Shown: positions 3,552 through 17,881 of the stretch, one piece after another
How positions within the stretch are numbered: position 1 is the first letter of the stretch
How the letters are laid out: the number at the start of each line of letters is the position of its first letter
Origin: Thermomicrobiales bacterium
Lineage (GTDB): Bacteria; Chloroflexota; Chloroflexia; Thermomicrobiales; UBA6265
Reading direction: 5' to 3'
Assembly: GCA_020432165.1 (NCBI GenBank)
Contig: JAGQGU010000019.1
Coordinates: 1-58,806 of the forward strand
DNA: 58,806 nt
Made by a program: the position numbers and the translations under genes
The notes under the pieces: model-generated
Database searches by the model: none
What the model was told of the DNA's origin: nothing
The model's input: only the letters and a program-made list of their open reading frames with translations

Positions 3552-4454
3552 ATGGCGATTGACGGGCTGAACTTCGAGCACGATGTGCTGCTGGCACCCT
3601 ACACCACCTATCGCATTGGTGGTCCGGCGGATCTTTTCCTGCATGCTCGTAACGAAGAGGAGTTGGTAGCGGGCATCACCTATGCGCGCGAACACAACCT
3701 GTCCTGGTTTCTGCTGGGTACCGGTGCCAATATCCTCATCGGCGATGGTGGCTTTCGCGGATTGGTAATCCACAACGAGGCCGATGGCATTGTCTTCGAT
3801 GGTGCTCGCGTCACTGCTGCCAGCGGTGTCACCATAGCCGAACTCATTCACCAGTCCGCAACCCGCAACCTCTCGGGATTCGAGCATTTCGCCGGCATTC
3901 CCAGCAGTGTGGGTGGCGCGATCTGGCAGAATCTCCACTTCCTCGCTCCTGATCGCGTGAATACGCTCTTTATCGAGAGCATTGTTGAATCCGCGCGGGT
4001 GCTTCTGGCCAACGGCGAGATCGTGGATGTTGACCGCGACTGGTTTGCGTTCGGCTACGATGATTCACGGTTACACCATGAGGAGATCGTGGTGCTGGAT
4101 GTGACCTTCCTGCTCACGCCATCAACGCGCGCAGCTATCGAGGCACAGGCCGAAGCCAATCTGGCCTGGCGCGCGGAACGGCAACCACCGGTCGAGATCT
4201 ATCCCAGCTGTGGCTCGGTTTTTAAGAAGATTGCGGGAATCGGCGCTGGTCGACTCGTGGATGGGGCCGGGCTGAAGGGGTACCGTATCGGCGGGGTGCA
4301 TGTCTCCGAAAAGCATGCCAACTTCCTGGTAAACACCGATGGTGGCAGTGCCCGAGATGTGACCGATTTGGTACGCCACATCCAGTCGACAGTGAAAGCG
4401 CACTCCGGGTATGACCTGGAGATGGAGATTCGCTGCATCGGCGAGTTTGTGTAG
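3552..4454 (+). CDS. murB: UDP-N-acetylenolpyruvoylglucosamine reductase-like FAD protein (MurB family)
   Basis: A 300-residue type II MurB-family protein. MurB reduces UDP-GlcNAc-enolpyruvate with NADPH and bound FAD to make UDP-MurNAc for peptidoglycan. Visible are the YTTYRIGGPAD opening, the FAD loop GTGANIL (56-62), AGIPSSVGGA (114-123) and the SCGSVFK segment carrying the proton-donating Ser222. The conserved Y-R-x-S motif is changed: residues 169-172 read Y-D-D-S, so the family's catalytic Arg is replaced by Asp170, and the usual PG of the GIPGxVGG motif is PS. It may therefore be a divergent paralogue. It starts directly after the stop of the preceding gene, suggesting coupled translation. 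No other cell-wall gene is adjacent. Confidence 0.85.
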   Translation: MAIDGLNFEHDVLLAPYTTYRIGGPADLFLHARNEEELVAGITYAREHNLSWFLLGTGANILIGDGGFRGLVIHNEADGIVFDGARVTAASGVTIAELIHQSATRNLSGFEHFAGIPSSVGGAIWQNLHFLAPDRVNTLFIESIVESARVLLANGEIVDVDRDWFAFGYDDSRLHHEEIVVLDVTFLLTPSTRAAIEAQAEANLAWRAERQPPVEIYPSCGSVFKKIAGIGAGRLVDGAGLKGYRIGGVHVSEKHANFLVNTDGGSARDVTDLVRHIQSTVKAHSGYDLEMEIRCIGEFV

Positions 4455-4473
4455 AGGGGACAACAGAAACAGG

Positions 4474-4498
4474 AATGGCGGCCGATATGGCCGCCATT
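4474..4498. terminator. Bidirectional terminator between murB and ndh
   Basis: A perfect 10-bp inverted repeat (AATGGCGGCC / GGCCGCCATT, loop gatat) lies between two convergent genes. It ends with AAT/ATT pairs and short T-tracts on both strands, so it can serve both transcripts. Confidence 0.75.
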
Positions 4499-4502
4499 TC
4501 CG

Positions 4503-5858
4503 TTAGTCTTCAGCGTCGTGCTTGTAGTCCGTGATGATGCGGCCACTGCGGTTATAACCGACGTAATCCCACATCCACTTCCAGAAGACATAGACCTTGT
4601 TGCGAAAGTTCACCAGACGAAGAATGTGGATAAACGCCCACACCGCCCACGCCGGGTAACCGGTCAGCTTCATGCCACCGACATCAGCTACCGCGCGGTT
4701 ACGACCGATGGTCGCCATCGATCCGTAATCCTTGTAAACAAAGGGTTGGTATGCTTCGCCCTTGATCCCAAGCAGAATATTCCTGGCTGCTGCCCGACCA
4801 CCCTGCTGCGCTACTTGCGCCACGCCGGGTAGCGGTCGTCCTTCGGGACCCGGGATGTGTGCTGTATCGCCAACGACGAAGATCTCCGGATGGCCGGGGA
4901 TATTCAACTCTGGCGTCACCATGATGCGCTTGCCGCGATCGAGTTCGGCGACATCGGCCACACCCTGATTAATGCTGGCGCCCTGGATACCAGCCGCCCA
5001 AATGATCAGACCAGCTTCGATGCGCTCTTCCTTGTTGATCTCCACACCGGTGGCATCAACACTGGTAACCATCGCCTTGGTTCGAACTTCTACACCCAGC
5101 TTCTCCAATGCATCCTGCGCGGCGGCAGAAAGCTTGGGATCGAACGCGGGGAAGATACGATCGAGACCTTCCAGCAATACGATGCGAGTATCACCGGTAT
5201 CGATATTGTGATATTCCTTCTTCAGGGTGAAGCGACTAAGCTCGGCGATGGCGCCAGCCATCTCGACACCGGTCGGACCGCCGCCTACCAAGACATAGGT
5301 CAGCAGGCGCTTGCGCTCCTCGGGATCGTCGGTGACTTCCGCAAGCTCGTAGTTCAGCAACATGCGCTGCTGGATGCGATGCGCATCCTCCAGGCTCTTC
5401 AAACCCCAGGCATATTCCGCCCACTGGTCGTTGCCAAAATAGCTATCACGGGCACCGGCGGCAATGATCAGATAGTCGTAAGACACGGGCGCGTTCGCGG
5501 CAAGGACGACCTGCTTGTTCTCTTCGTCAATATCCACCGCTTCATCAAAGATGATGGTGACATTCTTTTGATGACAGAATAGGTGGCGCAGTGGCTCGGC
5601 GATATGCTCGGCCGAAAGCTGGCTGCTGGCTACCTGGTAGAGCAGTGGCACGAAGAGGTTGTAGTTACGTTTGTCAATCAACGTAACCTGGACATCATGA
5701 CCCTTGAATGCCTTCGCGGCATCAACGCCACCGAATCCGCCACCGATAATCACGACCCTGGTCGGCCCTGTAGCAGTGGGAGTAGCAGCACGTTCTGCAG
5801 TGGTCTGTGTGGCCAAACCGGGCTCCTGTTTCTTACGCGTATGCGATTCCTGGTACAT
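4503..5858 (-). CDS. ndh: Type II NADH:quinone oxidoreductase (NDH-2)
   Basis: A 451-residue single-subunit NADH dehydrogenase that passes electrons from NADH to quinone without pumping protons. The FAD-binding GGGFGG lies at 39-44 after a disordered Thr/Ala-rich N-terminal stretch, the quinone-site helix contains NLFVPLLYQVASSQLS, and the NADH-binding VGGGPTGVEMAGAIAEL is near 191-207. The second FAD contact EIFVVGDTAHI is present, and the C-terminal part (LTGYPAWAVWAFIHILRLVNF and following) is the amphipathic membrane anchor. Length and order are typical. Only one ATG fits; a weak GGTGGGG lies upstream. It faces murB across a shared terminator. Confidence 0.92.
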   Translation of the reverse strand: MYQESHTRKKQEPGLATQTTAERAATPTATGPTRVVIIGGGFGGVDAAKAFKGHDVQVTLIDKRNYNLFVPLLYQVASSQLSAEHIAEPLRHLFCHQKNVTIIFDEAVDIDEENKQVVLAANAPVSYDYLIIAAGARDSYFGNDQWAEYAWGLKSLEDAHRIQQRMLLNYELAEVTDDPEERKRLLTYVLVGGGPTGVEMAGAIAELSRFTLKKEYHNIDTGDTRIVLLEGLDRIFPAFDPKLSAAAQDALEKLGVEVRTKAMVTSVDATGVEINKEERIEAGLIIWAAGIQGASINQGVADVAELDRGKRIMVTPELNIPGHPEIFVVGDTAHIPGPEGRPLPGVAQVAQQGGRAAARNILLGIKGEAYQPFVYKDYGSMATIGRNRAVADVGGMKLTGYPAWAVWAFIHILRLVNFRNKVYVFWKWMWDYVGYNRSGRIITDYKHDAED

Positions 5859-6247
5859 AGATACCCCACCGGCATGTGAGAAATTTCACGTTGCCTGCAT
5901 AACAGTACCGCCGGTTGTTCGTTATTGCCAGAGCCTAAGCGGCGGTATTCTTTGGTAGTACCCCAACCCGCGAACGGAATCCACACCGAAAGCAAATCAA
6001 TCCGGATTACCGACAGCTCGTTCGCCGCGTCAGGTAAACATAACGTATAGTGATCTCAGTCCACAATCGTCATGAAATCGATTTTCCAAAATTGGTGAAA
6101 CGGTTTATAGTGACGTTAATCACCGCCAACAAAGTGCATGTCTACACTGTTGTTGGTGGATCTTGGGGCGTGTGGTGCCCCTGGCAACGGCGGAATCGCC
6201 CGAGCCGTAGTTCCGGTACGTGCAAGAGCACGAAGGAGTATCAGCAG
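5859..6247. promoter_or_regulatory. Divergent intergenic region between ndh and the ABC importer operon
   Basis: This 389-base gap must hold promoters for both divergent units. On the plus strand a candidate is TTTCCA (6083-6088) and TATAGT (6106-6111) with a 17-base spacer, about 137 bases before the start at 6248. The stretch GTGAAACGGTTTA (6095-6107) overlaps its -10 and has a short AAAC-G-GTTT symmetry like LacI-family sugar operators, which is suggestive only. No coding sequence is convincing here. Confidence 0.35.
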
Positions 6248-7720
6248 ATGACTTCACCTCTCTCTCGCCGACTGTTGGTCCAGCGCGGTTCCGTGCTGGG
6301 CGCGGCTGCCACCCTTGGCGGCCAACGATTTACATTCGCGCAGGATGCCTCGCCCGCGGCGACCGCGGTAGAGGCCGATGCCGATTTTCTGGCGGCACAA
6401 GACGCATTGGTCGAAAGCCTCAAGGAGTTTGCAGGCAGCAAGATCAAGATGCTGAGCGCAGTGGCTGGCGGCAAGGATCCTGAGGAAGATGTCCTCTTCG
6501 CTCAGGAGTTCCAGCGCCTGACCGGTGTTGAGCTGGAACTGGTGCATCCAACCGCGGAGTACAACCAGAAGCTCCAGGCCGATCTCACGGCCGGGGTTGA
6601 GTACGACCTGATCTACACCAACAAGTCCACCATGGATCTGTTTGTGGAGCAGGAAATCCTCACCGATCTCACCGATCAGATCTCTGCCTCCGGCGTTCTC
6701 GGCAATCCAACCGTGATCCCCGCCGAAGAGTGGGAAATGATCACCTATGATGGCCGTATCTACAGTGTCTTCAACAAGTTTGAGGGCAGCCGTATGATCA
6801 CCATGCGTCAGGATTGGCTGGACAAGCTTGGCCTGGAGACACCACGCACCCTCGAAGAGTTCTACGACACCATGGTCGCACTGCGCGATGGTGATCCGGC
6901 GGGCGATGGTGGCCAACCGATTGGTTTCAGCGCCACCGGCACCTATGACTTCCAGCCGTTCTTCAGCGCCTGGGGTCTGCGCAATGGCTATCGCTACACC
7001 GACGATGGCAGCAAGGTCATCGATTACGCATCGGACGAAGCGATTCCGGTCTACGAGTATCTGGCCAAGCTCTTTGCTGAGGGCCTGATTGATCCGAACT
7101 TCGCGACGCAGGATATGGCGGCTGTGCGCAATCAGTTCATGACTGACAAGCTCAGCAGCCTCTGCTACTGGGATACCTGGGTCGGACTCTTCAATGCGCA
7201 GATGTTGGCTGCCGATCCGGCAACCGAATTTGTGGCCGTGGGTGTTGCCGGTATTGCCGACGAGAATGACAACATTACCATCACCCGTGGTCAGCCAAGC
7301 GTTTGGATGATTCCGATCAATGCCCCGAATCCGGACCTCGCCTTCAAGATCCTGGAGTGGTGGCACACCTTCCCGGGTATCACCCTGACCTCGCTCGGTA
7401 TTTTGGATCACGACTACACGGTGACCGATGGCGTCTATGCCCTGACCGAAGTCGGCAAGCAGCACGCCATGGATCATGGCCAGCCGACCCCGTACAACAC
7501 CAATTGGGTGAATCCGATCGGTGAGAATCCGGGTCTGAAGGAAGCACAGGCCATTACCAAGCAGTACGCATCGCTGGACTACTACGGTCCGGATTGGGAT
7601 GCCACGATCAAACCGCTGGTGGATGCCGCCATTATCCAGATGATTCTGGGCGATGTCGCACCCGCCGATGGCGTGGCCGCACTGCAGGAAGATCTGCGCA
7701 GCCAGGGATTCATCGACTAG
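6248..7720 (+). CDS. ABC transporter family 1 extracellular solute-binding protein
   Basis: A 490-residue exported binding protein for a carbohydrate-type ABC importer of the LplA/family 1 kind. The start at 6248 is chosen over an upstream in-frame ATG at 6050 because AAGGAG lies 9 bases before it and the protein then begins with a Tat-like signal (SRRLLVQRGS, cleavage near FAQ). The mature protein shows family features such as the LQADLTAGVEYDLIYTN lobe and the hinge segment NKLSSLCYWDTW-like region; a central PAGDGGQPIGFS loop precedes the ligand-binding lobe. It is the first gene of a four-gene operon, and the 32-bp palindrome after it probably raises its level relative to the permeases. 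Ligand unknown; a sugar or oligosaccharide is likely. Confidence 0.88.
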   Translation: MTSPLSRRLLVQRGSVLGAAATLGGQRFTFAQDASPAATAVEADADFLAAQDALVESLKEFAGSKIKMLSAVAGGKDPEEDVLFAQEFQRLTGVELELVHPTAEYNQKLQADLTAGVEYDLIYTNKSTMDLFVEQEILTDLTDQISASGVLGNPTVIPAEEWEMITYDGRIYSVFNKFEGSRMITMRQDWLDKLGLETPRTLEEFYDTMVALRDGDPAGDGGQPIGFSATGTYDFQPFFSAWGLRNGYRYTDDGSKVIDYASDEAIPVYEYLAKLFAEGLIDPNFATQDMAAVRNQFMTDKLSSLCYWDTWVGLFNAQMLAADPATEFVAVGVAGIADENDNITITRGQPSVWMIPINAPNPDLAFKILEWWHTFPGITLTSLGILDHDYTVTDGVYALTEVGKQHAMDHGQPTPYNTNWVNPIGENPGLKEAQAITKQYASLDYYGPDWDATIKPLVDAAIIQMILGDVAPADGVAALQEDLRSQGFID

Positions 7721-13425: not shown

Positions 13426-13654
13426 TCCTTTGGCACCTTTCGCGGAATCAGTACATTTACCCCTGCAGTATCGTCCGAATTCGGTTCCACGAACAGATTT
13501 CCGGGCCAATTCCATCAAAAAGATGGCGGGATATGTAGCGTTTTCGCATCGGAGTCGCTAGGCTAGAGTCTGGACACCGCTGTCTTCATCGACCGTGTAA
13601 TCATCGTTCGCGTGGATGACCAGTGCATGCGCGCCAGAACCCCAGGAAACCGCA

Positions 13655-14653
13655 ATGAAGATGCCCCGCAATCGCAGACTCACGATCTTTGGCTCCGTTG
13701 CTCTATCGGCCACGTTGGTGCTCAGCGCCTGCGGTAGTGATGACGACGCAAGTCCGACTGCTACGACGGTACCTGCGACTACTGCTCCGACCGAAGTAGT
13801 CACACCTACAGAGATTGCACCGGAAGGCACACCTGAGGAAACGGTGGCAACTCCGGAAGAGACTGAGGCTGCCGTTGCCACGCCTGAGGAAACTGAGGTT
13901 ACAGTCGCAACTCCGGAAGAGACCGAGGTAGCGGTCGCGACGCCAGAAGAGACCGAGGTAGCAGTCGCTACCCCAGAGGAGACAGAGGTAGCAGTCGCAA
14001 CTCCGGAAGAGACTGAAGTAGCGGTCGCGACGCCAGAAGAGACCGAAATTGCGGTCGCTACACCTGAAGAGACTGAGGTAGCAGTTGCGACTCCGGAGGA
14101 AACCATGGCAGTGGTTGCCACACCGGAAGAGACCGAGGTTGCTGTTGCTACGCCTGAGGAGACCATGGCAGTAATCGCGACTCCCGAGGAGACTGAGGTC
14201 GCGGTTGCAACTCCTGAGGAAACCGTGGCAGTGGTTGGCACTCCGGAGGAGACTGAGGTCGCCGTTGCCACACCGGAAGAGACCATGGCAGTGGTTGCCA
14301 CGCCGGAAGAGACCGAGGTCGCCGTTGCCACACCTGAGGAGACCATGGCAGTGGTTGCCACTCCGGAAGCAACTGAAACTGTAGCCACACCCGCTGAGAC
14401 GATGCCGGTTGTCATCGCCGCGACTGAAATAGCGGGAACACCAGAAGCATCGCCGATCGCAACACCAATCGGTACGCCGATGGCATCCCCAGTTGCCTCT
14501 CCGATCGCCTCGCCACAGGCGACACCAGACGCAACTCCAGATGAGTCAGCATCTGCAGCCCAGGAGCATGCCTCGGCCACGATGGGAGAACTACTCGGAC
14601 GTGCTGCCCAGGGCATCCGCTCGACCATCGTAGTCAGTGGCCCCCGTAGCTAG
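13655..14653 (+). CDS. Lipoprotein with long TPEET decapeptide repeats
   Basis: A 332-residue predicted lipoprotein: a basic N-terminus, hydrophobic stretch and the lipobox LSAC put the lipid-bearing Cys near residue 26. Most of the rest is a repeat of ten residues built on V-A-T-P-E-E-T-E-V-A, about 18 units between residues 58 and 245. The first half is uniform; the second half alternates EVAVA with MAVVA so the true period becomes 20 residues. A Pro/Ala/Ser/Thr linker and a short tail end the protein. It has no catalytic domain and probably forms an extended acidic stalk on the cell surface. AGGAAA precedes the ATG at 13655. Function unknown. Confidence 0.78.
   Translation: MKMPRNRRLTIFGSVALSATLVLSACGSDDDASPTATTVPATTAPTEVVTPTEIAPEGTPEETVATPEETEAAVATPEETEVTVATPEETEVAVATPEETEVAVATPEETEVAVATPEETEVAVATPEETEIAVATPEETEVAVATPEETMAVVATPEETEVAVATPEETMAVIATPEETEVAVATPEETVAVVGTPEETEVAVATPEETMAVVATPEETEVAVATPEETMAVVATPEATETVATPAETMPVVIAATEIAGTPEASPIATPIGTPMASPVASPIASPQATPDATPDESASAAQEHASATMGELLGRAAQGIRSTIVVSGPRS
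13829..14387 (+). repeat. Tandem 30-bp repeats (60-bp higher-order unit in 3' half)
   Basis: About 18 copies of a 30-base unit encode the TPEET decapeptide. From about 14101 the units pair into a 60-base period (14101, 14161, 14221, 14281, 14341). Codons differ between copies (e.g. acc/act/acg/aca for Thr), showing that the peptide is kept by selection while the DNA drifts. The array is stop-free on both strands, which creates a long false reading frame on the minus strand. Confidence 0.9.
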
Positions 14654-14851: not shown

Positions 14852-17410
14852 ATGGTCGCGACGAATAGCGGAGTTGGTCTGGAAATCAGCGATTACGATG
14901 AAGGGCTCGATTTTCGGCGACGATATCGGGGGCTGATCGGGGTCAATAGCAAACTCGCCATCCGCGATCGCTCGATCCTTTCGCTCGTCTACACACCTGG
15001 TGTTGCCGCCGCCTGCACAGCCATCGAACACGATCCCGTACGCAGCTACGATCTCACCTGCCGCGGTAATACGGTTGCACTGATGAGCGATGGCTCCGAT
15101 CTCTTCGGCTCCACCGCCGCAGCAGAGCCGAATCCGCTGGCCGAGCTTCCCGCCGCTGAAGGCAAATCCGTCATCTTCAAGACCTTTGCTGGCGTCGATG
15201 CGTTCCCGGTCATGCTCGCGACTACCGAGATCGACGAGATTGTCGAAACCGGCGTCGCACTGGCACCCACATTCGGTGCAATTTGTCTGGACGATATCGC
15301 CTCGCCGCGCGCGTTTACCATTGCCGAAACACTGGAACGAGCCGCCAATATCCCTGTCTTCAGCAATCAACATCACGGCACTGCTATCCTCGCGCTGGGC
15401 GCGCTCTACAACGCACTAAAGATCGTCGGCAAGGATCTGGAGACGGCACGCATTGTGCTCAGCGGCGCAGGTATCGCCGGAATCGGTGTCGCCCGACTCC
15501 TCACTCGCGCCGGTGCCAAGAACCTGGTTGTCTGTGATCGCGCTGGCGCAATCTACAACTATCGCCCCGACCGAATGAACTGGGCGAAAGCCTATGTCGC
15601 CAAGGAAACCAACTTCGAGGAGCGCAAGGGCAGCCTCGCAGAGATGATGGTGGACGCCGATGTCTTCATCGGACTCAGCTCCGGCGGCATCGTCACCGAA
15701 GAAATGGTGAGCACGATGGCCAGCGACGCCGTGGTGCTGGCCATGGCCGTACCGGCGCCTGAAGTAACACCAGAACTCGCCCGAGCCGGCGGGGCGCGAG
15801 TCATCGCGACTGGTCGTAGCGATTACGCCAATATGTTGGACACCAGTCTGGTCTTCCCTGGATTCTTCCGCGGGTTGCTGGACTCTGGTGCACGCAATAT
15901 CCGACTCCGCATGCTGCTCAATGCTGCTCGCGCACTGGCAGATATGGTGCGATCCGACGAGCTTCACGCCGATCATATCGTGCCGCATATCTTTGACTTC
16001 CGGGTCGCTCCGCAGATTGCTGCATCGGTTGTGCGCACCGCCATTCAGACCGGTGAAGCTACCCGCGAGATCACTCCAGAAGAGGTTGCCGAGAAAACCC
16101 TGCGATATGTTTACGAGGGCCGCCTGGAGAAACCGCGACCGAGCCTGCGCTCCAATGGCGATAGCCACAGCTTCGTGGAGGAAGCGATCGATCTACGCGA
16201 ACGTCATCATGGCATCATCGAGATCGAGAGCAAGGTGCCGATTCGGGATCACCATATTCTCAATATGCTTTATCTTCCGCCGGCTGCCCTGGCACCGAGC
16301 TACGTAATCCGCGAAGACGCCTCTCAGGTCTATGAACTCACTGGCAAGGGCAATCTGGTCGGGATCGTTACCGATGGTTCAGCTGTGCTGGGCCTCGGCG
16401 ATATCGGTCCGCAAGCAGCGATGCCAGTCATGGAAGGCAAGGCTGCTCTCTTCCGCTCACTGGCGGGCGTGGAAGCCTTCCCGATCTGCCTGGCTGAACG
16501 CGATCCCGACGAGATCGTCGCCCGGGCAGTAGCGATCTCCCCCAGCCTGGGTGGCATCAACCTCGAAGATATCGCTGCTCCGCGCTGTTTCGAGATCGAG
16601 GAGAAGTTGAAGGCAGCGCTCGATATGCCTGTCTTCCACGACGATCAGCATGGTACGGCCGTGGTTGTACTGGCAGCAATGCTGAATGCCACCAAGCTCA
16701 TTCGACGCGAATTGGGCGATCTCCGCATCGTCGTCAACGGGGCCGGTTCAGCGGGTATGGCGGTGACCAAACTCCTCATGCAGAGCGGCGTGAAGGATGT
16801 CATCCTCTGCGATCGCACCGGTGCGATCTACAAGGGTCGACCGACCAGTATGGGCAAATACAAGGACGAGATCGCGGAAATAACCAATCTGGAAGGGAAA
16901 CAGGGCAGCATGGCCGAAGTGCTGGTGGGAGCGGATGTCTTCATCGGCCTCTCTGCACCAAAGACGCTTACCACCGAGATGGTACGCACGATGGCACCGA
17001 ATCCGCTGATTTTCGCGCTGGCAAATCCGAATCCGGAGATTACGCCGGACGATGCCTTCGAGGGCGGCGCCTTTGCGGTGGCGACTGGTCGATCCGATTA
17101 TCCGAATCAGGTGAACAATTCGCTCGCTTTCCCGGGTATTTTCCGGGGCGCGCTTGATGTAAAAGCCACCGCTATCTCGGATGAGATGAAGATCGCCGCG
17201 GCGGAAGCGATCGCTGCACTGGTCCCGAACGCGAAGTTGAGCCCGGACTTCCTGATTCCGGATAGCCTCGATCTGCGGGTTGCACCACGTGTGGCCGCGG
17301 CTGTGGCAGCCAAGGCATACGAGCAAGGGCTGGCTCGCGGTACGATTACACCGGACGAGATTGAGGCACGCACCCGCGACATGGTTTATGAAGGCGTGGT
17401 GTTCAACTAG
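14852..17410 (+). CDS. Tandem malic-enzyme-like protein (two fused malic domains)
   Basis: An 852-residue protein made of two complete malic-enzyme-like halves (about 20-425 and 445-852). Malic enzymes oxidise malate to pyruvate with NAD(P) and a divalent metal. The second half keeps Tyr474, Lys530 (MEGK), Glu572-Asp573, the metal Asp597-Asp598 (FHDDQHGT), the dinucleotide loop GAGSAG and malate-binding Asn725 and Asn755-756, although the YTPGVA loop has become YLPPAA. The first half keeps YTPGVA (Tyr47), Lys105 and GAGIAG but has Ser171-Asn172 in place of Asp-Asp, Val300 for Asn, and Asp330-Thr331 for Asn-Asn, so it is probably not catalytic. This is not the MaeB layout, where the second part is a phosphotransacetylase-like domain. 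A GGAGGAA site precedes the ATG. Confidence 0.88.
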   Translation: MVATNSGVGLEISDYDEGLDFRRRYRGLIGVNSKLAIRDRSILSLVYTPGVAAACTAIEHDPVRSYDLTCRGNTVALMSDGSDLFGSTAAAEPNPLAELPAAEGKSVIFKTFAGVDAFPVMLATTEIDEIVETGVALAPTFGAICLDDIASPRAFTIAETLERAANIPVFSNQHHGTAILALGALYNALKIVGKDLETARIVLSGAGIAGIGVARLLTRAGAKNLVVCDRAGAIYNYRPDRMNWAKAYVAKETNFEERKGSLAEMMVDADVFIGLSSGGIVTEEMVSTMASDAVVLAMAVPAPEVTPELARAGGARVIATGRSDYANMLDTSLVFPGFFRGLLDSGARNIRLRMLLNAARALADMVRSDELHADHIVPHIFDFRVAPQIAASVVRTAIQTGEATREITPEEVAEKTLRYVYEGRLEKPRPSLRSNGDSHSFVEEAIDLRERHHGIIEIESKVPIRDHHILNMLYLPPAALAPSYVIREDASQVYELTGKGNLVGIVTDGSAVLGLGDIGPQAAMPVMEGKAALFRSLAGVEAFPICLAERDPDEIVARAVAISPSLGGINLEDIAAPRCFEIEEKLKAALDMPVFHDDQHGTAVVVLAAMLNATKLIRRELGDLRIVVNGAGSAGMAVTKLLMQSGVKDVILCDRTGAIYKGRPTSMGKYKDEIAEITNLEGKQGSMAEVLVGADVFIGLSAPKTLTTEMVRTMAPNPLIFALANPNPEITPDDAFEGGAFAVATGRSDYPNQVNNSLAFPGIFRGALDVKATAISDEMKIAAAEAIAALVPNAKLSPDFLIPDSLDLRVAPRVAAAVAAKAYEQGLARGTITPDEIEARTRDMVYEGVVFN

Positions 17411-17422
17411 ATTGCGGGTTGC

Positions 17423-17881
17423 ATGACCGATTCAGCAGATACGTTTCAATGGCACCCTGACTACGCGGGTCGCACTATCGAGAGCGTCCAGCGAGAGATC
17501 TCCGAGAATCTGCGACGGGATCAGCTGGCCTACCAGAATGCGCTGAATAACGCCGAAAGGGAAGAGTTTGGTGCCTTCGCCACAATCCGCGATCTGGAGC
17601 GAAAGTGGAGCCAGTACGACATGAGCTGGGCCGAAGTCGACTCCACGATGCTCGCGGAGCGGATCGTTGCCTTTGAGCATGCCCGCGACACGAGGCAAGA
17701 ACTCTTCAGTTGGCAGGAATGGAAGGCGAATCTGGAGCCGCTACCGGTAAGCGGTGCGAAATCCGACTGGCGCGAGAATATGAGCGATGAACAGCGTCGC
17801 AAGGTCGCCTCTGCGATCGCGATGGGCGTGATCGTTCTGAGTCTGATAGTCGTGTTGATTGCGTTGAGCCTGATTTTCTAG
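17423..17881 (+). CDS. Hypothetical tail-anchored membrane protein
   Basis: A 152-residue protein of unknown family, 12 bases after the malic enzyme and probably co-transcribed. Residues 20-115 are charged and likely helical. The only hydrophobic segment is at the very end (about 130-152, AIAMGVIVLSLIVVLIALSLIF), so the protein probably hangs in the cytoplasm from a C-terminal membrane anchor. The ribosome site is weak (GCGGGTTGC). Function not known. Confidence 0.6.
   Translation: MTDSADTFQWHPDYAGRTIESVQREISENLRRDQLAYQNALNNAEREEFGAFATIRDLERKWSQYDMSWAEVDSTMLAERIVAFEHARDTRQELFSWQEWKANLEPLPVSGAKSDWRENMSDEQRRKVASAIAMGVIVLSLIVVLIALSLIF

Follow-up and report, generated by a model that had tools for sequence, protein, structure and literature searches.

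The only malic enzyme gene of a Thermomicrobiales genome encodes two malic enzyme units in one 852-residue chain. Very probably this chain is the dimer of small bacterial-type malic enzymes in fused and asymmetric form, a pseudo-dimer within one polypeptide that has a single composite site for catalysis and a second pocket that is dead. Catalysis itself, and the presence of one site per chain in solution, are inferred from the evidence laid out below, namely complementary residue loss, a single phylogenetic origin, purifying selection and a predicted swapped-arm fold.

The argument starts from published structures of the parent class. Small malic enzymes of the bacterial type form entangled, domain-swapped dimers in which the Tyr of the YTPGV motif sits on an arm that reaches into the partner, and the Lys and metal ligands come from the protomer itself (PMC7902834, PMC11944484). 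Y52 of BbMaeB is supplied by the opposing protomer (PMC7902834), and in the Entamoeba enzyme EhME a 48-residue entangled segment brings 65-YTPGV-69 into the other protomer, placing Tyr65' 2.8 A from Lys120; both Lys120 and the metal-motif Asp193 belong to the receiving protomer (PMC11944484). Since the Tyr comes from the partner and the Lys and metal ligands are the protomer's own, each active site of a small malic enzyme combines the arm of one protomer with the body of the other. If the halves of a fused chain pack as an entangled dimer, the chain would need no more than a single functional arm and a single functional body, located in opposite halves.

The fused gene, its distribution and its origin

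The window is the whole stretch of DNA that was analysed, 58,806 nucleotides in length. The gene and its principal parts are as follows (positions in the window; + is the forward strand).

14852-17410 (+): tandem malic enzyme ORF, 852 aa, an uninterrupted frame of 852 codons
14852-16135 (+): N half, residues 1-428; Tyr-arm donor with a degenerate metal/malate site and a Rossmann motif that looks intact
16118-16171 (+): linker between the halves, about residues 423-440, lying in the model between helices 409-422 and 441-452
16136-17407 (+): C half, residues 429-852; Lys, metal and malate ligands intact, Tyr motif lost

Pfam matches both PF00390 (malic) and PF03949 (Malic_M) twice in the chain, bearing out the original prediction that two malic domains are fused in one 852-residue protein. 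A stop or frameshift between the halves of 14852-17410 was looked for and none was found, the frame being open throughout. Dozens of independent genomes contain this fused frame as well, which rules out a frameshift or assembly artefact. The chain had also been distinguished from MaeB, correctly, as no PTA model is present among its Pfam and NCBIfam matches and residues 429-852 form a malic unit. Within the 3.2 Mb genome PF03949 is found only in this ORF, so any malic enzyme activity of that family must come from this chain.

Upstream of the gene, a putative lipoprotein ORF (13616-14650, +), with an LSAC lipobox and composed mostly of ATPEETEVAV repeats, has no Pfam or NCBIfam match. Downstream, a 152-aa ORF (17423-17881, +) that starts 12 bases past the malic enzyme stop and carries a hydrophobic C-terminal tail is without a family match; its counterpart in a genome of the same genus (G001, locus L004) is also a neighbour of the gene and is 56% identical. 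A conserved operon was considered as a clue to function and discarded, because only this small downstream ORF stays adjacent in the close relative. A neighbourhood of nagB, beta-lactamase and inositol-phosphatase genes occurs in one or a few family members, and Rfam gave no match in the window.

The tandem form is present in most of the searched genomes of the window's order, and single units are found in other orders of the class. Tandem lineages extend over at least six phyla, with members in Thermomicrobiota, Chloroflexota, Methylomirabilota, Nitrospirota, Nitrospinota, Tharpellota, Deltaproteobacteria and Melainabacteria. A contig scan also recovered tandem genes from Candidatus Methylomirabilota, Nitrospinota, Nitrospirota, Anaerolineae, Candidatus Tharpella, two Deltaproteobacteria bins and Vampirovibrio chlorellavorus. 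Since several of the carriers are metagenome bins, individual taxa may be misassigned. In the tree, the N halves group into a single clade (SH-aLRT 99), as do the C halves (94); the two clades are sisters (95) and stand apart from the single enzymes. This topology rules out an independent origin in each phylum and argues for one ancient event of duplication and fusion, after which the fused gene was inherited or transferred. The well-supported pairs (L103/L113, L107/L110, L075/L085) and the Thermomicrobiales group are recovered alike in the N and C subtrees. Values of dN/dS between 0.0 and 0.22 were obtained for arm and body in both halves, indicating purifying selection.

One family member illustrates how the fusion can be overlooked. 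On NC_011961.1 of Thermomicrobium roseum (L033) the frame at 4013-6526 is open from 4013 and encodes 837 aa, but the PLSDB/RefSeq gene table begins the malic enzyme at 5291 and thus lists the C half only. The fusion is thereby hidden in the annotation, which is corrected here.

Active-site residues kept and lost in the two halves

The N half of the chain carries the following elements.

14942-15073 (+): crossover arm, residues 31-74, homologous to the EhME entangled segment and predicted to enter the C half
14990-15007 (+): YTPGVA (47-52), the catalytic Tyr motif; YTPGV invariant in 70/70 N halves
15284-15298 (+): CLDDI (145-149) in place of NLEDI, the Glu metal ligand having become Asp147
15362-15382 (+): SNQHHGT (171-177) in place of HDDQHGT, the metal-site Asp-Asp gone; first Asp lost in 70/70 N halves
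15464-15481 (+): GAGIAG (205-210), nucleotide-binding loop kept; both scored Gly present in 70/70 N halves
15749-15751 (+): Val300 in place of the malate Asn; Asn in 0/70 N halves
15839-15844 (+): Asp330-Thr331 in place of Asn-Asn; second Asn in 0/70 N halves

Those of the C half are as follows.

16220-16357 (+): crossover arm, residues 457-502, placed confidently only with the N half present
16271-16288 (+): YLPPAA (474-479) in place of YTPGVA; YTPGV in 0/67 C halves
16439-16441 (+): Lys530, the catalytic base position; 67/67 C halves
16559-16573 (+): NLEDI (570-574), with metal ligands Glu572 and Asp573; 67/67 C halves
16637-16657 (+): HDDQHGT (596-602), with metal-site Asp597-Asp598; 68/68 C halves
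17024-17026 (+): Asn725 (NPxPE), malate Asn; 66/66 C halves
17114-17119 (+): Asn755-Asn756 (PNQVNNS); 66/66 C halves

Most of these assignments had been anticipated. Alignment upheld Val300 and Asp330-Thr331 as the replacements of the malate Asn and of Asn-Asn in the first half, and located YLPPAA at 474-479 of a second half that keeps its metal and malate residues. Intact metal or malate ligands were sought in the first half by alignment, and none align. The proposed replacement of Asp-Asp by Ser-Asn (171-172) held as to the loss and failed as to the register: the residues in the Asp-Asp columns are Asn172-Gln173, and Ser171 occupies the position of the preceding His.

The pattern is general. 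The tandem set comprised 68 pairs (54 distinct sequences), of which 67 were scorable; 70 N halves and 66-68 C halves were scored. Complementary loss, in which the N half lacks the metal and malate ligands and the C half lacks YTPGV, was found in 67/67 scorable tandem proteins. Neither half of any of them carries the complete set (YTPGV, K, LED, HDD, N, NN), whose residues are all present once in the window's chain; the full set of ten scored residues is kept in 74 of 77 single-unit malic enzymes. The altered motifs themselves drift between lineages. The metal motif of the N half, nearly invariant as SNQHH across Thermomicrobiales, appears elsewhere as ANHQH, NNHGL, HNDQH, NNHQE, HADQH or HSDQH beside an unchanged YTPGV. 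The Tyr motif of the C half takes the forms YLPPA, YLSPN, YVSPG, YSAAG and YTQPE beside unchanged Lys, LED, HDD and NN. About 90% of the C halves do keep the Tyr of this motif, with His in 4/67 and Cys in others, so the motif is best described as altered and not always stripped of its Tyr.

The bias is not confined to the scored residues. Single malic enzymes share 123 columns with conservation of 90% or more, 11 of them in the arm and 112 elsewhere. Among the arm columns none is lost in the N half and 4 are lost in the C half; among the others the losses are 33 and 11, respectively. This difference between the arm and the rest is significant by Fisher's test (p=0.007) and by column permutation on 16 lineage representatives (p=2e-5). 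The arm shares the rank of most N-biased stretch with its two adjacent windows.

Two further tandem genes are interrupted. L047 (G312, from another Chloroflexota class) was excluded from the counts for an in-frame TGA, which sits in the N half and reflects either a sequencing error or a broken gene; by eye its N half (HSHQQGT, with the Lys lost in EDAY) and C half (YLYPGLS) fit the pattern. The tandem enzyme of L095 (Nitrospirae bin NS_11) is split into three ORFs, with the N half and the start of the C half sharing a frame, through frameshifts or assembly errors.

Some features of the N half are retained beyond the arm. Lys105 (EGK) is present in the window's N half and in 67/70 overall, being lost in L096, L103 and L113, and the beta-2 Asp of the nucleotide unit is kept in 70/70. 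With its catalytic residues lost, its fold kept (pLDDT >90 over most of its length) and its dN/dS low, the N half qualifies as a pseudoenzyme.

Predicted fold, proposed composite site and alternative explanations

AlphaFold2 was run on 24 tandem sequences (the window's and homologues from the contig scan). The full-chain model of the window protein has a mean pLDDT of 91.9 and a pTM of 0.90, and its linker holds a short helix (432-435). Each half superposes whole on the Phytoplasma enzyme 5CEE over 387 residues, the C half at 1.3 A (assigned to that row from its 50% identity) and the N half at 1.6 A. Both arms therefore point away from their own bodies in the model, as they do in the swapped crystal protomer.

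Comparison with eukaryotic malic enzymes gives a different alignment, which runs from about residue 32 to 849 and in most rows includes 373-393 residues at 2.4-3.2 A. Given the extended N arm, the stretch from residue 32 can match a eukaryotic enzyme only jointly with the body of the C half; the model thus puts the N arm and the C body together onto one eukaryotic protomer. Identity in most Trypanosoma rows is 28-29%, the same as for the C half folded alone; one Trypanosoma row aligned the N half instead (6w2n, 13-429), at 21%. The full-chain alignment starts at residue 96 of human ME2, upstream of the catalytic Tyr112. When the C half was folded alone, its overall pLDDT was 82.4 and most of its arm scored only about 40-57, versus about 90 in the full chain. 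Most trimmed alignments of this lone half with eukaryotic enzymes start at its own residue 68-71 and cover about 340 residues at 2.5-2.9 A; those with human ME2 start at its residue 65-71, opposite ME2 residue 151-155. Some untrimmed control rows begin with residue 1 and fit at 3.5-4.3 A. The best structural matches are small-type enzymes, and in the model a eukaryote-like protomer arises only from the N arm and C body.

An entangled-dimer fold with swapped Tyr arms is accordingly present in the predicted model, and in that model only. The N-arm/C-body reading of these VIA rows was made from first and last residues, aligned counts and identities, and the proximity of Tyr47 to Lys530 is inferred. 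In addition, AlphaFold2 may give a fused homologue a dimer-like fold regardless of the real arrangement, and its handling of topology is described as poor (PMC10672856).

On the best explanation of these data, the two halves fold against each other within the chain in the manner of two entangled protomers. The arm of the N half would insert Tyr47 of YTPGV into the C half, beside Lys530, Glu572/Asp573, Asp597/Asp598, Asn725 and Asn755/756, so that every chain has a single complete site for the oxidative decarboxylation of malate to pyruvate and CO2 with NAD(P)+. By homology, Tyr47 would act as the acid and Lys530 as the base, Mg or Mn would be bound by Glu572, Asp573 and Asp598, malate would be held by Asn725 and Asn756, and NAD(P) would lie on the C-half Rossmann unit. 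The reciprocal pocket, built from YLPPAA of the C arm and SNQHH, Val300 and Asp330-Thr331 of the N body, would be catalytically dead, without the usual binding of metal and malate. With its Lys105 and Rossmann motif, it is probably a scaffold and perhaps a regulatory nucleotide site; that a nucleotide is bound or sensed there is a fair guess that has not been shown, the kept nucleotide motif being the only hint.

The original prediction had left open whether the first half is a regulatory pseudoenzyme or contributes to a mixed site. The mixed site is the better supported, because the arm motif is kept in the half without metal ligands and lost in the half that has them in 67/67 proteins, as expected from the swapped-arm structures; a pseudo-site in the N body is compatible with it, and any regulation remains an inference.

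A separate observation concerns the interface. Lys110 and Asp116 (residues 110-116, window 15179-15199) are invariant in N halves and align with Lys125 and Asp131 of EhME, which touch the partner's arm (PMC11944484). Their C-half counterparts (residues 535-541, window 16454-16474) are mostly Gln/His and Glu. This split, seen in the alignment alone, possibly represents co-adaptation of an asymmetric interface.

One could argue instead that the C half is an ordinary malic enzyme, working in a C-C' swapped dimer that tolerates YLPPAA, with the N half serving only as a regulatory or scaffold pseudoenzyme in the manner of the PTA domain of MaeB. The C half does have all of the own-protomer residues and usually a Tyr, and MaeB is regulated by its appended pseudo-domains (PMC7902834). 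A pure scaffold, however, would not need an invariant YTPGV, and a Tyr position that can be His or Cys is hard to reconcile with this arrangement, as are the loss of confidence in exactly the arm of the lone C half and the N-arm/C-body composition of the eukaryote-like protomer. We consider it improbable.

Other explanations turn on what the N half does by itself. Retention of Lys105 in 67/70 N halves is more than a plainly dead site needs and counts against our preferred reading. Together with an invariant GxGxxG (70/70), the near-constancy of SNQHH in Thermomicrobiales and strong purifying selection, it could mean that both halves are catalytic, the N half having another reaction or substrate in its SNQHH pocket. 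Such a shared new active site should not vary between phyla as this motif does, nor lose its Lys in three members, and the malate Asn and first Asp are lost in every N half; new chemistry here is very unlikely. At the other extreme, the loss of catalytic residues might mark the N half as a functionless copy drifting neutrally after duplication. This is barely credible for a sequence conserved across phyla with its full ORF and YTPGV intact, and is contradicted by dN/dS, mostly 0.01-0.2 in the N arm and body. The fused pseudo-dimer with one composite site remains the best explanation.

Relation to known malic enzymes and fused dimers

Neither the fold nor the chemistry is new, but no account of the fused, asymmetric, single-site form turned up in the open literature searched. 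That search, from which most subscription papers were absent, gave no hit for malic enzymes in tandem, fused or duplicated form. Evolution seems to have carried out a complementation test of the swapped-tyrosine model, with parts of the site lost only in opposite halves, and the family offers a ready system for studying single-site versus two-site behaviour and the asymmetry of fused symmetric dimers. It also bears on whether fusing an entangled dimer gives a natural knot. The Entamoeba dimer has been described as an inter-chain knot (PMC11944484) and fused dimers can knot, so a fused malic enzyme chain may be knotted; one survey of knots in AlphaFold models left out chains of >600 residues. 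That natural concatenation has produced a deeply knotted chain, in which one composite site has turned into a nucleotide-sensing allosteric control of the other, is a speculative and rather doubtful extension.

Among malic enzymes, the closest relatives are the small ones (AYWB Candidatus Phytoplasma, 5CEE; Thermotoga TM0542, 1VL6; EhME, 3NV9), which share the fold of each half, the swapped arm, the own-protomer Lys and metal ligands and the residues of the composite site. Those enzymes are homodimers with two equal sites, whereas the tandem enzyme has fused, diverged halves and one complete composite site. It resembles MaeB, a malic enzyme joined to an inactive PTA-like domain, in having a catalytic unit fused to a dead one and in chain length. 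Unlike in MaeB, the dead unit is an N-terminal second malic enzyme that would supply a catalytic residue, catalysis is assigned to the C-terminal unit, and there is no PTA. The large eukaryotic and MaeA-type enzymes, of about 550 residues with the arm unswapped within the protomer, do not match. Plant mitochondrial NAD-malic enzymes are alpha/beta hetero-oligomers of diverged, duplicated subunits that work together; unlike the tandem enzyme, they are encoded by separate genes, belong to the eukaryotic unswapped class and have no fused pair sharing one site.

The nearest parallels outside the family are fused intertwined dimers. Engineered HP0242 concatemers join an intertwined dimer into an artificial trefoil, the knots of natural double-domain SPOUT methyltransferases and of carbonic anhydrases are explained by dimer duplication and fusion, and malic enzyme is not among the families named in the accessible part of that literature. 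Like these proteins, the tandem malic enzyme is, going by its model, an intertwined dimer made into one chain with dimer-like packing; unlike them, it has lost catalytic parts asymmetrically from its two halves, and this is its new element.
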